A stretch of 50,255 bases of DNA, taken from positions 1-50,255 of the forward strand of contig JAFQQW010000038.1 in NCBI GenBank assembly GCA_017410375.1, in the 5' to 3' direction. Positions 11,163 to 50,255 of the stretch are shown one piece after another. A program made the translations under genes and the position numbers. This DNA comes from Clostridia bacterium. Its GTDB lineage: Bacteria > Bacillota > Clostridia > RGIG6154. Under the pieces are notes generated by a model that saw only the letters and a program-made list of their open reading frames with translations, was not told the origin of the DNA and ran no database searches. How positions within the stretch are numbered: position 1 is the first letter of the stretch; every line of letters starts with the position of its first letter.

Positions 11163-11168
11163 GATAAT

Positions 11169-11371
11169 GCTAAACATAACTTAATATATAGTGGCAGGAG
11201 TATTTTTATTTTAGGGATAATACTCTTTATTTGCTATAATGTTTTTTGGATTTGATAAAAACGCAACTCCCTTAAACGTTGTAGCAGATTTATCCTGCCT
11301 TCTTTAAGTTATGTTTAGCGACTGATCGGAGTTTGCGTTTTTTTGCGCCTGCTCCGGTAGGCGCATTTTTT
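11169..11371 (+). ncRNA. Structured non-coding RNA or leader (RNA 1), class unknown
   Basis: A long stem closes the element: 11169-11184 pairs perfectly with 11304-11319 (16 bp). Inside, GGCAGGA (11193-11199) pairs with TCCTGCC (11293-11299), and GCTATAATG (11233-11241) pairs with CGTTGTAGC (11277-11285). The apical loop 11257-11270 is complementary to the tail 11328-11342 with one bulge, giving a possible 14-bp pseudoknot. An intrinsic terminator ends it at 11371, 20 bases before the M23 peptidase ATG. It could be a stand-alone RNA (the long interrupted stem recalls 6S RNA) or a riboswitch-like leader of the peptidase gene. I do not recognise a known riboswitch core in it. Confidence 0.65.
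11344..11371 (+). terminator. Terminator at the end of RNA 1
   Basis: TGCGCCT (11344-11350) pairs with AGGCGCA (11359-11365), loop of 8, then six T. It is so close to the next gene that any expression of that gene from the upstream promoter must pass it. Confidence 0.85.
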
Positions 11372-11390
11372 AATTTTGGAGGAATTTAGG

Positions 11391-45989: not shown

Positions 45990-46000
45990 GAATACGGGTG

Positions 46001-46741
46001 ATGCATTTGATTGTGTATGTAGATGTAGCTTTAGTGCTGTCTTTGTTTTTAAACGGGACTCTTGTGTGGCTTCCCGGAAAGCTGATGGGCGTAAAAACAA
46101 CACCTGTTCGTATGGTGCTTGGCACATTAACAGGTGTTTTGTACGGTGTAGTGTGCTTTATAACAGACTATTATCGGATATGGCTTTCTGTAGGGGTGGC
46201 ATACGTACAGATGCGGATTTCCTATCCGCAAAAGCAGGGCGTGCTGATGCTTGCAAAAATAGCTTCGGCGATTTTACTTGCGGGCTGGCAGCAAACCTTT
46301 TCGGTAGCAGGCGTGACCTCGTTAATGCTGTTTGTGGCAGGTGTTTATGCCTTGCGACTGCTCTGGAAAAAAATTCATGGCTTCATTCGTACCGAAAAGC
46401 TGTATCGGAAAATTCAGATAGGGGTAAATGGAAACAGTCTGGAGTTTATGGGGTATATTGATTCGGGAAACCGCCTTTCGGTAGCGGTGCTGAGTGAACA
46501 GACTGCCATTTCGTTACTCGGCGAAAAGCTGGTAGCGGATATGCGTGAGATGGAAAATACAAAAGCACTGAACTACCGTCTTTTGCCTTGTACGACGGTA
46601 AGCGGAGAAGGGTTTATTCCGGTTTTTAAGCCGGATTTTATGAAGATAGACGGCAAAAAAAGCAATATGCAGGTGGGGATTAATTTTATGCCTATGCAGG
46701 AGCAGATGCTACTGCCTAAAAATGTTCTGGAGGTACAGTAA
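46001..46741 (+). CDS. spoIIGA: Sporulation sigma-E factor-processing peptidase SpoIIGA
   Basis: A 246-residue membrane aspartic protease that cleaves the pro-sequence of sigma-E in response to forespore SpoIIR. The N-terminal half has about five hydrophobic helices starting LIVYVDVALVLSLFLNGTLV. The C-terminal half is a retropepsin-like domain with the catalytic GYIDSGNRL motif (DSGN where Bacillus has DTGN). The next gene starts at the first base after its stop codon. ATG 46001 is preferred to a GTG one codon upstream; the ribosome site is weak. Confidence 0.92.
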   Translation: MHLIVYVDVALVLSLFLNGTLVWLPGKLMGVKTTPVRMVLGTLTGVLYGVVCFITDYYRIWLSVGVAYVQMRISYPQKQGVLMLAKIASAILLAGWQQTFSVAGVTSLMLFVAGVYALRLLWKKIHGFIRTEKLYRKIQIGVNGNSLEFMGYIDSGNRLSVAVLSEQTAISLLGEKLVADMREMENTKALNYRLLPCTTVSGEGFIPVFKPDFMKIDGKKSNMQVGINFMPMQEQMLLPKNVLEVQ

Positions 46742-47434
46742 ATGTTTATAAAGTGGATACATAAAATTAAAAATTTGTTTGAAAAAAAGGATATTTTTTA
46801 TATTGGAGGCAGTCAGATTCTGCCCGCACCGTTAAGCAAGGAGGAAGAAGCCTCCTGCCTTGAAAACATAAAGGACAGCGAAAACCGCAAGCTTTTGATT
46901 GAACACAATTTAAGGCTTGTGGTCTACATTGCAAGAAAGTTTGAAAATACAGGAATCGGGATTGAGGATTTGATTTCCATCGGTACCATCGGGCTGATTA
47001 AAGCGGTCAATACCTTTAATCCCGAAAAAAACATCAAGCTTGCAACCTATGCGTCCCGCTGTATTGAAAACGAAATTTTAATGTTCCTGCGGAAAAACAG
47101 CAATACCAGGCAGGAAATTTCCATCAATGAGCCGCTGAACACCGACTACGACGGCAATGAGCTGATGCTTTCGGATATTTTAGGCTCGGATGCGGATGCA
47201 GTGGGAAAGTCTTTGGATGATGAGGTGGATAAAGAGCTTCTTGCCATTGCCATGGGCAGACTTTCGGTGCGGGAAAAGGAGATTATGTGCTTGCGCTACG
47301 GGTTGCTGGGCGGTGAAGAAAAGACACAAAAGGAGGTGGCGGATAAGCTCGGTATTTCCCAGTCTTATATTTCAAGACTTGAAAAACGTATCATTTTACG
47401 TCTGAAAAAAGAGATGGATAAAATGACAGATTAG
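46742..47434 (+). CDS. sigE: RNA polymerase sporulation sigma factor sigma-E
   Basis: A 230-residue mother-cell sigma factor. Residues 1-25 ([20 protein letters not shown]) form the amphipathic pro-sequence that anchors it to membrane until SpoIIGA cuts. Region 2 is seen in [20 protein letters not shown] and [18 protein letters not shown], and region 4 in [20 protein letters not shown]. It is coupled to spoIIGA (adjacent stop and start), with GGAGGT inside the end of spoIIGA. Confidence 0.96.
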
Positions 47435-47463
47435 TATAACTTTTTCGTTCCCCGGGGATACTA
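47434..47463 (+). promoter_or_regulatory. Sigma-F-type promoter of sigG
   Basis: GTATA (47434-47438), 15 bases, GGGGATACTA (47454-47463). Both elements fit the sigma-F consensus GYWTA - about 15 - GGNNANAHTR at every position. The expected start is near 47470. Confidence 0.8.
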
Positions 47464-47503
47464 AGAGTATCGCTTGAAAGGGAAGGGGACGAAAAAGTTG
47501 TAC
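47434..47503 (+). promoter_or_regulatory. Long stem sequestering sigG ribosome site and start codon
   Basis: 47434-47453 pairs with 47485-47503 (19 bp, one bulged T, one G-U). The 3' arm holds the Shine-Dalgarno AAGGGG (47483-47488, mostly paired) and the TTG start (47498). A smaller hairpin GATACT/AGTATC (47457-47471) is in the loop. Only RNA reading through from sigE has the 5' arm; RNA from the sigma-F promoter starts after it. Confidence 0.75.
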
Positions 47504-48271
47504 ATGAATAAAGTGGAAATCTGTGGTGTTAATACAGCAAAGCTTCCGGTGCTTTCTGCGGAGGAAAAGGAGAATTTACTCCGTAAAATCAAGCAGGGCG
47601 ACAAGCAGGCGGAAGATGATTTTGTGAACGGAAATTTAAGGCTTGTTTTAAGTGTGATACAAAAATTCTGTAATCGGGGCGAATACGCGGACGATTTGTT
47701 TCAGGTGGGGTGTGTGGGACTGATGAAGGCGGTCAAAAACTTTGATTTGAGTGTAGGCGTAAAGTTTTCCACCTATGCGGTGCCCATGATTGTGGGTGAG
47801 GTGCGTCGGTATTTGAGGGACAACAACGCCATTCGTGTGTCCCGTTCGGTAAAGGACCTTGCGTATAAAGCTCTGCAGGCCAAAGAGGAACTATCAAGAG
47901 CAAATAACCAAGAACCAAGCTTGGAAGAAATCGCCAAAAAACTGGATGTTCCGGTTAAAGCCATTTCAAATGCGTTGGATGCCATACAAGACCCTATTTC
48001 CCTTTACGACCCCGTTTTTCACGACGGAACGGATGCGGTATCTGTTATGGATCAGGTGAAAGACGATAAAAATCACGACGAGCTGTGGACAGATGATATC
48101 GTGCTTCGGGAGGCAATTGAACGCCTGCATGAGCGGGAGAAGAAAATCATTACTCTCCGCTTTTTTCAGGGCAAAACCCAGACCGAGGTGGCAGAGTCCA
48201 TCGGCATCTCTCAAGCCCAAGTCTCGCGCCTTGAAAAAAGCGCCCTGAGCCAGATGAAGAAGTATATATAA
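47498..48271 (+). CDS. sigG: RNA polymerase sporulation sigma factor sigma-G
   Basis: A 257-residue late forespore sigma factor, closely similar to Bacillus SigG throughout: NKVEICGVNTAKLPVL at the N-terminus, ADDLFQVGCVGLMKAVKNFD and VKFSTYAVPMIVGEVRRYLR in region 2, and GKTQTEVAESIGISQAQVSR in region 4. The TTG at 47498 is chosen because AAGGGG lies 9 bases upstream and the protein length then equals that of Bacillus SigG (M-x-x-NKVEICGV). The ATG at 47504 is an alternative with spacing 15. Confidence 0.95.
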   Translation: MYMNKVEICGVNTAKLPVLSAEEKENLLRKIKQGDKQAEDDFVNGNLRLVLSVIQKFCNRGEYADDLFQVGCVGLMKAVKNFDLSVGVKFSTYAVPMIVGEVRRYLRDNNAIRVSRSVKDLAYKALQAKEELSRANNQEPSLEEIAKKLDVPVKAISNALDAIQDPISLYDPVFHDGTDAVSVMDQVKDDKNHDELWTDDIVLREAIERLHEREKKIITLRFFQGKTQTEVAESIGISQAQVSRLEKSALSQMKKYI

Positions 48272-48393: not shown

Positions 48394-48489
48394 TTGCTCT
48401 TACTGCGTTTCGCAGTTGCCAGTTCATAAAGTTTTGCGATAACCTGAACTGTCAACCACACCGCTGTGAGAGCTTTTATTATTTTTATA

Positions 48490-48681
48490 ATATATCTTAA
48501 GACTTTTGGTGACCGATATACCATAGCAAAGGCTGCGGGTGACAAGGACATGATGCTCAAAGAGCAGACGCGTATGACACAGCTTTCGCAAAAATATAAC
48601 GAGTTTTCTAAAAAGGCGGGATTGCCTACCAAAGTGGAGCGGTTGAGTAGCGGAATTTCGTCTAAATCGTTGACAAAGCGT
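48490..48681 (+). pseudogene. C-terminal remnant of a phage minor head (SPP1 gp7-like) protein
   Basis: About 60 codons, from TFGDRYTIAKAAGDKDMM to FSKKAGLPTKVERLSSG, follow the end pattern of phage minor capsid/head-morphogenesis proteins (KAAGD, a run of charged helix, Y-x-EFSKxAGLPxxxER). The upstream part of such a gene is missing. The frame continues without a stop into the GNAT-like gene, so a fused 254-residue product from GTG 48466 is formally possible, but no ribosome site precedes that codon. Confidence 0.6.
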
Positions 48682-48698
48682 GGGAATAGTGGTATAAT
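48670..48698 (+). promoter_or_regulatory. Consensus sigma-A promoter of GNAT-like gene
   Basis: TTGACA (48670-48675), 17 bases, TATAAT (48693-48698). Both hexamers are perfect. It lies inside the end of the phage remnant. Confidence 0.85.
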
Positions 48699-48723
48699 AA
48701 AAATAGGAGGTAGTGGAATAGAT

Positions 48724-49230
48724 ATGTATATTGACAAATTCACACCTTGCTTAGAGGATGCAAAAACCGGGGAAATACTGTCGACCTCTTATGCTCTTGT
48801 ATCTAAACATGAATTGAGACAATTAAAAGGTTGGAAATTTAATTGGATGGATTCGGATTTGGATAGTTCAGAAATCTACAAACTGACATTAAAAGGCGAT
48901 TCTGAAATTCAAGGTTTAATTTCGATTACTAATTTTGAAAGAGACAGAGCTGTCTATGTAAAACTTGTCGAAAGTGCACCGCATAATTTAGGCAAAAATA
49001 AGCAATATAATGGCGTTGGCGGACATCTGTATGCGATAGCGGCGCAAAAATCTGTCGATAAAAGATATGGCGGTTTTTTGTTTATGGATGCCAAAAATGC
49101 TGAGTTGGTTGAACACTATCATAAAACGCTTGGAGCGGTACTGATAGGTAGACCGCATCCATACAGAATGATTGTTGATGAAGATGCTGCAAAAAAATTA
49201 CTGAAAATCTATACATTGGAAGGAGAATGA
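48724..49230 (+). CDS. GNAT-like acetyltransferase of phage-remnant locus
   Basis: A 168-residue protein. Residues 1-60 have no clear match (MYIDKFTPCLEDAKTGEI, later GWKFNWMDSD). A central strand pair (IQGLISITNF, AVYVKLVESAPHN) leads to NKQYNGVGGHLYAIAAQKS, which looks like the acetyl-CoA loop (GxGGxL after a charged residue), followed by FLFMDAKNAELVEHYHKTLG, the usual end of a GNAT fold. The substrate is unknown. GGAGG lies 13 bases before the ATG, a long spacing. The stop overlaps a potential ATG (ATGA) of the next small gene. Enzyme, toxin or tRNA/protein modifier are all possible. Confidence 0.7.
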   Translation: MYIDKFTPCLEDAKTGEILSTSYALVSKHELRQLKGWKFNWMDSDLDSSEIYKLTLKGDSEIQGLISITNFERDRAVYVKLVESAPHNLGKNKQYNGVGGHLYAIAAQKSVDKRYGGFLFMDAKNAELVEHYHKTLGAVLIGRPHPYRMIVDEDAAKKLLKIYTLEGE

Positions 49231-49232
49231 GT

Positions 49233-49424
49233 ATGTCAAGAACAGATATGGAAAGCATGAAACAGCTTGATGAAGTGGCAGAAAAGGCAGGCGGATTTGT
49301 ATCTATGCTGAAAAGCGATGAAATTCGCTACGACTACAGGAAAATCCTTGCGCACTGTAAAGAAAAAGGCATAGAGCCTATGGATTTAACAATAAGAGAG
49401 TTGAATCAATTTATTGTACAATAA
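49233..49424 (+). CDS. Small acidic helical protein, partner of GNAT-like gene
   Basis: A 63-residue protein starting MSRTDMESMKQLDEVAEKAG and ending RELNQFIVQ. It is predicted to be helical, with no membrane segment, no Cys and no DNA-binding motif I recognise. GGAAGGAGA ends 7 bases before ATG 49233; an ATG at 49227 overlaps the previous stop. The tight coupling suggests that the two proteins act together, for example as a modifier and its regulator. A terminator follows. Confidence 0.65.
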   Translation: MSRTDMESMKQLDEVAEKAGGFVSMLKSDEIRYDYRKILAHCKEKGIEPMDLTIRELNQFIVQ

Positions 49425-49445
49425 AAAAGTAGTCTATGATGTGAT

Positions 49446-49478
49446 AACCACCCTACTGTGACGGTAAGGTGGTTTTTT
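49446..49478 (+). terminator. Terminator of GNAT-small protein unit
   Basis: AACCACCCTAC (49446-49456) pairs with GTAAGGTGGTT (49464-49474) with one mismatch, loop of 7, then T residues. Confidence 0.85.
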
Positions 49479-49500
49479 AGTGCCAAAAAGAAAAAATAAG

Positions 49501-49529
49501 TTGCATTTATGCTTTTTTTGTGGTAAGAT
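49501..49529 (+). promoter_or_regulatory. Sigma-A promoter of structured RNA 2
   Basis: TTGCAT (49501-49506), 17 bases, TAAGAT (49524-49529) with TGG before it (extended -10). The expected start is 49536, the first base of the closing stem. Confidence 0.65.
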
Positions 49530-49535
49530 AATATT

Positions 49536-49697
49536 AACCACGCAACTGAATATACTAACCATAAGCGTTTGCATTTTTACTTTGGTAAAAGGTGCGAAGC
49601 TTTGTTTTCGTATGCTTATGGTATATGTTGCGTGGTTGCAGGCGAAGCTCGTGCTTTTTCGGTGCGTAGCTTCAGTCTATTGAACTACGCACTTTTT
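49536..49697 (+). ncRNA. Structured non-coding RNA or leader (RNA 2), class unknown
   Basis: The closing stem is AACCACGCAAC (49536-49546) with GTTGCGTGGTT (49627-49637), perfect over 11 bp. It continues as ATATA (49550-49554) with TATAT (49622-49626) and CCATAAGC (49559-49566) with GCTTATGG (49614-49621), with only short 5'-side bulges. An apical hairpin TTTTAC/GTAAAA lies at 49575-49590. AGCTTTG in the loop could pair with CGAAGCT in the tail. A terminator ends it at 49697. A membrane-protein gene follows, so it may be a leader. No known riboswitch core is recognised. Confidence 0.65.
49662..49697 (+). terminator. Terminator at the end of RNA 2
   Basis: GTGCGTAG (49662-49669) and TTCA (49671-49674) pair with TGAA and CTACGCAC (49681-49692) with one bulged C, followed by five T. 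Confidence 0.88.
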
Positions 49698-49727
49698 ATT
49701 TGCAATTTCTTTTTTGGAGGTGAATTT

Positions 49728-49805
49728 TTGTATACTTGGCAAGGAGTGCGAAATTTATCAAAAAAGGAGAAATGGAAATGTATAATCATGAAAATACGGA
49801 TTTAG
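49728..49805 (+). CDS. Possible 25-residue leader peptide
   Basis: A TTG at 49728 is placed 7 bases after GGAGGTG and opens a frame for 25 residues (MYTWQGVRNLSKKEKWK then CIIMKIRI) that overlaps the start of the membrane-protein gene by 28 bases. It may couple translation to the next gene. An alternative reading of the same ribosome site is a TTG at 49736 in the frame of the membrane protein, which would add 14 residues. Confidence 0.3.
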   Translation: MYTWQGVRNLSKKEKWKCIIMKIRI

Positions 49806-50131
49806 CGGTTACCTTACTTGTAACTGCAACTGTTGTTGTTTTGATTGCAGGAATTGTTGGCGGTTTGGTAATCGGAGGCGTAATACCGGACATTCCTAGT
49901 GTGTTTGCTGAAAGCGGATTTGGTTTTGTATATATGTTATGTGTATGGATTGTTAGTGCAGTTGTCGCACTAACACTATACGCGAAAGCTGTTCAACTGC
50001 AGATTGCTGACGAAATGCTAGGCGAAGTAAAAAAGTTGGAACAACCGAAACCGGTGGTTAAGACCGTTACCAGAACGGTGATTCAGAAACAGCCGGCAGA
50101 GAGTGAACCGGCAGAGAACACAAACGAATAA
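49778..50131 (+). CDS. Small membrane protein of unknown function
   Basis: A 117-residue protein with two transmembrane helices (about 9-34, VTLLVTATVVVLIAGIVGGL; about 47-72, VYMLCVWIVSAVVALTLYA), then a charged tail with a Pro/Val/Thr repeat (KPVVKTVTRTVIQKQ) ending in Glu/Pro/Asn. No family is recognised. AAAGGAGA lies 8 bases before ATG 49778; ATG 49772 is too close to it. It is directly downstream of RNA 2 and ends with a terminator. Confidence 0.65.
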   Translation: MYNHENTDLAVTLLVTATVVVLIAGIVGGLVIGGVIPDIPSVFAESGFGFVYMLCVWIVSAVVALTLYAKAVQLQIADEMLGEVKKLEQPKPVVKTVTRTVIQKQPAESEPAENTNE

Positions 50132-50148
50132 AAGTAAATACGATAACT

Positions 50149-50180
50149 AAGTACTTGTAAGAAATTACAGGTACTTTTTT
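50149..50180 (+). terminator. Terminator after small membrane protein gene
   Basis: AAGTACTTGTAA (50149-50160) pairs with TTACAGGTACTT (50165-50176), with one G-U and a GAAA loop, then T residues. Confidence 0.88.
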
Positions 50181-50255
50181 ATATTCCAAAACAGCCGGGA
50201 CCGGGCTTAAAAGGGGTCAGTTTCGTAGTGGGCAGAGCTCCACTTAAAAAAATCT

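Follow-up and report, generated by a model that had tools for sequence, protein, structure and literature searches.

Antisense-controlled attenuators are found on the plasmids pT181, pIP501 and pAMbeta1, and a different type of terminating leader is represented by the preQ1-I, fluoride and c-di-GMP-II riboswitches, which terminate transcription and have pseudoknot aptamers. Signalling riboswitches are known to have exported-protein regulons. Synthetic antisense attenuator cascades, in which an attenuated antisense RNA controls a further attenuator, are described in the available part of PMC3753616, and the available part of PMC8040213 reports 3161 candidate structured RNAs of human microbiomes. 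The window analysed here (the whole stretch of 50 255 nucleotides of a Clostridia bacterium contig) contains at 49536-49697 an element that makes more sense as a 5' leader belonging to the downstream gene than as a separate RNA ahead of it. From its sequence it is probably a bistable transcription attenuator, and the input of the family to which it belongs is most likely a tail-capturing antisense RNA from siblings that precede no gene.

As in pT181, pIP501 and pAMbeta1, the leader has a terminator and an exclusive antiterminator strand, and an antisense RNA covering that strand would terminate transcription. Unlike these plasmid systems, the family is chromosomal, with 9-16 copies in each of the seven genomes counted; its antisense stretches act, if at all, in trans, from behind another copy of the switch instead of from the strand opposite the target leader, and a pseudoknot forms part of the leader. 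As in preQ1-I, fluoride and c-di-GMP-II, the pseudoknot strand is common to the expression platform and copies occur in tandem, but the family has neither an Rfam match nor a ligand, and its regulon is heterogeneous. Cascades in this family would be natural, unlike those in the available part of PMC3753616, and both chains given below are predictions.

The minimum free energy of 49536-49697 was −60.9 kcal/mol, compared with −39.2 ± 3.7 kcal/mol for 200 dinucleotide shuffles (z −5.87), none of which folded as well. Together with a promoter six bases before the start and an intrinsic terminator, this bears out the structured RNA that a sequence-only reading had placed here, and the promoter, closing stem, apical hairpin, loop-tail pairing and terminator agree with that reading in position to within a few pairs. 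Its three stems of 11, 5 and 8 bp were close; the recount gives the 11 bp of P1, an adjoining 4-bp AUAU continuation in the window copy and 10 bp. The possible loop-tail pairing, AGCUUUG (49598-49604) with CGAAGCU (49643-49649), spans 7 bp and covaries in the family. The placement before a gene stands in so far as a gene does follow; an RNA independent of that gene is the less likely reading. The features are listed in Table 1.

Table 1. Features of the leader, its surroundings and a second family member in the window
Feature	Position	Strand	Basis or remark
Second, divergent family member	11165-11374	+	E 8.3e-6, 47 bits, whole-genome R2 search
Terminator of preceding phage head/toxin-immunity-like genes	49446-49478	+	Sequence reading; same in C69
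Promoter	49501-49529	+	−35 TTGCAT 49501-49506, 17-nt spacer, −10 TAAGAT 49524-49529; fixed family distance to closing stem
Folded 5' domain (P1, P2, P3 hairpin, 3' bulge)	49536-49637	+	Fold and family covariation
P1 closing stem, 11 bp	49536-49546 with 49627-49637	+	
P2 stem, 10 bp	49559-49568 with 49612-49621	+	
P3 apical hairpin	49571-49595	+	
Pseudoknot loop strand AGCUUUG	49598-49604	+	Duplex with tail, family permutation 0/5000
Switch strand (tail)	49643-49654	+	49643-49649 pairs loop; 49644-49654 pairs terminator 5' arm; antiterminator 0/5000
Intrinsic terminator hairpin and U tract	49662-49697	+	Fold; 9/9 pairs covary in family
GGAGG ribosome site	49716-49720	+	Directly 3' of terminator; common to C69 copy
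Downstream gene, 117-aa membrane protein	49778-50131	+	Without confident family

From the positions of TTGCAT and TAAGAT, the latter preceded by TGG in the spacer, transcription would start at ∼49536, in agreement with the earlier proposal of a start exactly at the closing stem. The window promoter scored only 8 in the promoter scan, in a register different from this reading. The preceding genes are closed by their own terminator, so that the promoter of the element is isolated. The terminator of the element ends in U5, and its 5' arm (49662-49673) doubles as the 3' arm of the antiterminator.

A scan of the window with the Rfam 15 covariance models detected only a tRNA at 212-284. Nothing near the cut-off was found in 49300-49900 up to E 10, and no match up to E 0.05 overlapped the element in 20 homologous loci; the c-di-GMP riboswitch aptamer models and the T-box model were without a match in the scans of the window and these loci. 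The RNA had been called unassigned, and with no Rfam match to the element it stays so. The family is not described in the available parts of PMC8040213, PMC2864571, PMC11109978 and PMC8632094, and no description was found in the literature searched, which does not prove that none exists. The family therefore appears to be previously uncatalogued and absent from Rfam. The candidates of PMC8040213, as far as that source was available, come from the same kind of bacteria by the same discovery logic; none of the examples described there fits the present family, and one of its candidates could be a piece of it.

A DNA search recovered three further copies: besides a second one on contig C69 of the same genome, there was one in a different genome and one in a phage-labelled scaffold. 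The four had a common architecture, but their stems differed considerably. The covariance model R1, built from three of these copies, matched 51 of 196 sampled genomes of class Clostridia, with at least 14 copies in the richest. In a phylum sample of 299 genomes at E 1e-5, for which few candidates were scored per genome, the genome of the window alone matched. An exact core pattern occurred in at least 100 stretches of named genomes; the 80 of 100 that were listed all belonged to uncultured or metagenome-assembled organisms (Clostridia, Oscillospiraceae, Ruminococcaceae, Monoglobus and relatives), mostly of animal-gut origin. The family comprised 104 matches spread over 100 loci, almost all of them of full length; three partial or opposite-strand matches and eight duplicates were left out. 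A second model (R2) was built from 104 sequences. With R2 the genome of the window holds 15 copies, among them a weak one in the window itself (Table 1), 16 nt ahead of an M23 peptidase gene (11391).

Good promoters, defined by a score of at least 9 of 12 (a level reached by 18-19% of shuffles), preceded 83 of 103 elements in a first set and 78 of 84 in a second, and P1 followed the end of the −10 box at a distance of 5 or 6 nt in 77 of those 83 and 77 of those 78 members. The distance from promoter to closing stem is thus fixed across the family. A nearby gene with a ribosome site followed in 63 of 105 and 56 of 84 members, mostly 13-21 nt after the U tract. No gene was called within 130 nt of 28 of 84 members, some being missed through start or length rules. 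The fixed promoter distance, the terminator and these members without a called gene are what would be expected of a free-standing small RNA with a coincidental gene behind it; the tight spacing to ribosome sites and the covarying antiterminator make this very improbable.

A signal-like sequence was assigned by a simple rule to 36 of 48 downstream proteins of at least 100 aa, compared with 40 of 294 other genes in the same loci, and to 21 of 30 in the second set. A Pfam scan of 83 chosen downstream proteins (20 of 103 having been dropped beforehand) yielded BspA-type leucine-rich repeats in nine, the copper amine oxidase N-terminal domain in six, a zinc ribbon and MraZ/AbrB-like domains in three each, and M23 and CHAP in two each. 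Small-protein families recur downstream, one of 82 aa behind three of the copies in the genome of the window. Two uncharacterised groups of small proteins (about 78-82 aa, and Cys-rich with CCCDECNY) recur directly behind the switch, the loci with recurring small proteins being L019, L021, L023, L151, L152, L154, L015, L034, L087 and L217.

Such an exported-protein regulon would suit a classical riboswitch, in which binding of a small metabolite would stabilise the pseudoknot domain and end transcription; the antisense pieces would then be secondary or relics. The pseudoknot over a bulge, the unpaired AAUA, GCA and UUUU conserved across the family, the tandem copies and the 5'-leader position are also consistent with it. 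Nevertheless, the downstream genes are very mixed and have no metabolic theme, and the sibling-addressed antisense stretches described below are left unexplained, making this reading unlikely on its own; a metabolite riboswitch, also in combination with antisense control, is possible. The surface-protein regulon suggested a c-di-GMP sensor, an idea to which the occurrence of GGDEF proteins lends no support: they were absent from 13 of 51 RNA-bearing genomes (some of them incomplete) and 25 of 145 others (p 0.22). One genome lacking GGDEF holds nine family copies, and that of the window has two GGDEF matches.

Conservation in the apical part of the family (UUUG-GUAAAAAUGCA and UUUUC), together with many dispersed, regulon-like targets, would also fit a leader whose apical part is read by an RNA-binding protein that tips the switch. 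With no candidate protein identified and no autoregulated gene dominating downstream, this appears distinctly improbable. The U-A tract of P3 is nearly invariant, in contrast to the covarying stems elsewhere, and UUUU is retained in the bulge (window 49571-49609); a U-A-U triple helix in P3 and bulge is possible.

The attenuator reading is carried by the pairings. In an alignment of 105 copies (104 distinct), 42 pairs were paired in 95.8% of cells, 35 pairs had changes on both sides, and 540 cells were double changes compared with 117 in shuffles. Compensatory changes among homologues, the absence of which was to speak against the RNA, are therefore abundant. Both-side changes occurred at 13 of 13 pairs in P1, 6 of 6 in P2, 5 of 9 in P3 and 9 of 9 in the terminator, stems that are favoured as part of the search model, whereas the pseudoknot and antiterminator are not in the model; the shuffle controls leave the relatedness between copies in place. 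The five pseudoknot pairs were paired in 94.5% of cells (92.8% shuffled) with 9 double-change cells compared with 2.1, and the antiterminator in 85.4% (83.4% shuffled) with 52 compared with 32. As conservation masks covariation, duplexes were swapped between copies.

The first swap test used 100 distinct rows of the 105 and the second 80 of 84 other rows, short or duplicate rows being dropped. In the first, the loop-tail duplex had a native mean of −11.0 and a swapped mean of −10.2, and the duplex of tail with terminator 5' arm −14.4 and −12.2; in the second, the corresponding values were −10.5 and −7.8, and −14.1 and −10.1. All four comparisons gave 0/5000. The control, loop with terminator arm, for which pairing is not expected, gave 1548/5000 and 1017/5000. 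The window copy is by its predicted energies a strong case of both alternative pairings relative to the family means: its loop-tail duplex is −14.0 kcal/mol (mean −9.6 with all tails) and its tail/terminator-arm duplex −18.6 (mean −13.1 over all tails). The energies of the competing hairpins are balanced, with means of −15.6 for the terminator and −14.3 for the antiterminator over 189 members, and −15.8 and −15.9 in the window. An intrinsic terminator and a mutually exclusive antiterminator are thus present in the sequence, and a single strand fitting two partners that exclude each other is the hallmark of a switch.

As an attenuator, the leader would work as follows. RNA polymerase would start at the closing stem P1. 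Should the tail then pair with the apical loop, the terminator would be free and the gene off; should it pair with the terminator 5' arm, the antiterminator would form and the gene would be on. We infer that the choice falls during transcription, and likewise which of the two states is the default. An antisense RNA on the tail would block both pseudoknot and antiterminator, free the terminator and turn the target off, an action suggested by the structure and by analogy with the mechanism of pT181 and pIP501.

Candidates for such an RNA are encoded behind the gene-less members, where the reverse complement of the P1 3' strand, junction and tail follows the terminator as a stretch of 25-35 nt and is succeeded by another terminator. 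Gene-less members were chosen by eye, 21 for a test of their own tails and 19 of those for a count of second terminators, which were present in 14 of the 19 compared with 16 of 192 others. A second P1 serving as a decoy in cis was rejected, as the own P1 fits no better (26 of 200 at a score of at least 16, compared with 12.8% when swapped); since it was not preferred, the antisense reading was taken up. Self-targeting is not general either, the median fraction for the own tail being 0.54, with L164 as the exception.

In a near-complete test set of 83 members from seven genomes (5 of 88 matches dropped), 10 of 83 members had a same-genome antisense score of at least 31 within 110 nt behind the terminator. 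The controls at this score were 0/83 for the reverse complement, 1/83 upstream and 0/83, 0/82 and 1/82 further down. The ten duplexes, about 25-31 nt long, had energies of −29 to −43 kcal/mol, compared with −13 to −19 with shuffled tails. Against draws of tails from other genomes, siblings were preferred at 0/5000 by L164, L145, L147, L237, L181, L238 and the weaker L271, and at P of about 0.05 or less by L277, L177 and L174; there was no same-genome preference for L195 (P 0.87), L183 (0.94) and L170 (0.39). L258, L155 and L293 also gave 0/5000 despite low scores (19-27), so the sibling test is liberal and single P values are unsafe. The best of all 83 tails came from the same genome for 8 of the 10 stretches; this figure is less biased than the diagonal advantage, which is partly selection because the ten pairs are the best same-genome matches.

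Most antisense stretches begin too near the terminator to have a promoter of their own and would therefore be made only by read-through; those of L277 and L174 lie further off. A gene-less member would thus be a repressor that is itself switchable, with the antisense RNA behind its own terminator aimed at siblings. Among the predicted targets, small proteins and further gene-less members predominate. Two chains are predicted: in the genome of the window L147 fits L145 and L145 fits L158, and in genome G109 L238 fits L277 and L277 fits L272. No antisense to the tail of the window copy was found in its own 96%-complete assembly, and the input of this copy may be a missing or phage-borne antisense RNA, a ligand or a protein.

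These data suggest a wider scheme, which is put forward tentatively and stands at somewhat less than even chances: an RNA-only network in which gene-bearing members control exported or small proteins and switchable gene-less members send antisense RNAs, addressed by closing stem and tail, that repress siblings in cascades, the replacement of stems between duplicates being a re-addressing. In a tandem array of three copies at L098:6300-7320, the flanks, promoter, P1, tail and terminator are ∼97% identical, but every copy has had both P2 arms replaced (identity 0.60-0.67, against a random level of 0.59). P1 and P2 likewise differ between the two prophage copies, and orthologues in related genomes keep P2. 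At L020:1797-1979 two Gut-1 RNA matches, one under the cut-off, lie beside a family member.

A regulatory RNA of this kind, with many copies per genome, seems to have gone unnoticed so far, apparently because the genomes found to carry it belong to uncultured gut Clostridia. If control by sibling antisense is true, attenuator cascades like those that synthetic biologists construct by hand operate naturally in bacteria, and in many gut bacteria the surface-protein programme would be governed by RNA-to-RNA control that can be read from sequence and predicted.

The sequence-only reading had been right to suspect something other than a housekeeping RNA; its accessory phage module is contradicted by a family that is chromosomal, multi-copy and widespread, with 2 of the 15 copies in this genome known to lie in phage head genes. 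The gene ahead of the window element encodes a truncated minor head protein of phage type (a weak match, E 0.0016), and terminase, portal and minor head genes precede the C69 copy; two copies thus do lie in phage surroundings, which for the family as a whole is incidental. A phage-specific RNA was ruled out by the dispersed chromosomal copies and by the viral contigs of IMG/VR, none of which matched any of four exact patterns. The scaffold MT835845 is unverified, and its open reading frames appear to be chromosomal. The suggested leader peptide is doubtful, and attenuation by it is also rejected: in C69 its TTG frame, which differs there by one base in an A run, is fused in frame with the membrane protein, and the two prophage copies do not have the frame in common.

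The C-terminal part of the minor head protein and the small next gene differ between these copies (window 48466-49424 and L003), and the two resemble a MuF-type polymorphic toxin with its immunity gene. Just ahead of the phage remnant, at 45998-48271, lie genes that resemble spoIIGA, sigE and sigG. Contigs C38 and C69 end in identical sequence (window 50132-50255, L003:1-134), a repeat at which the assembly broke.
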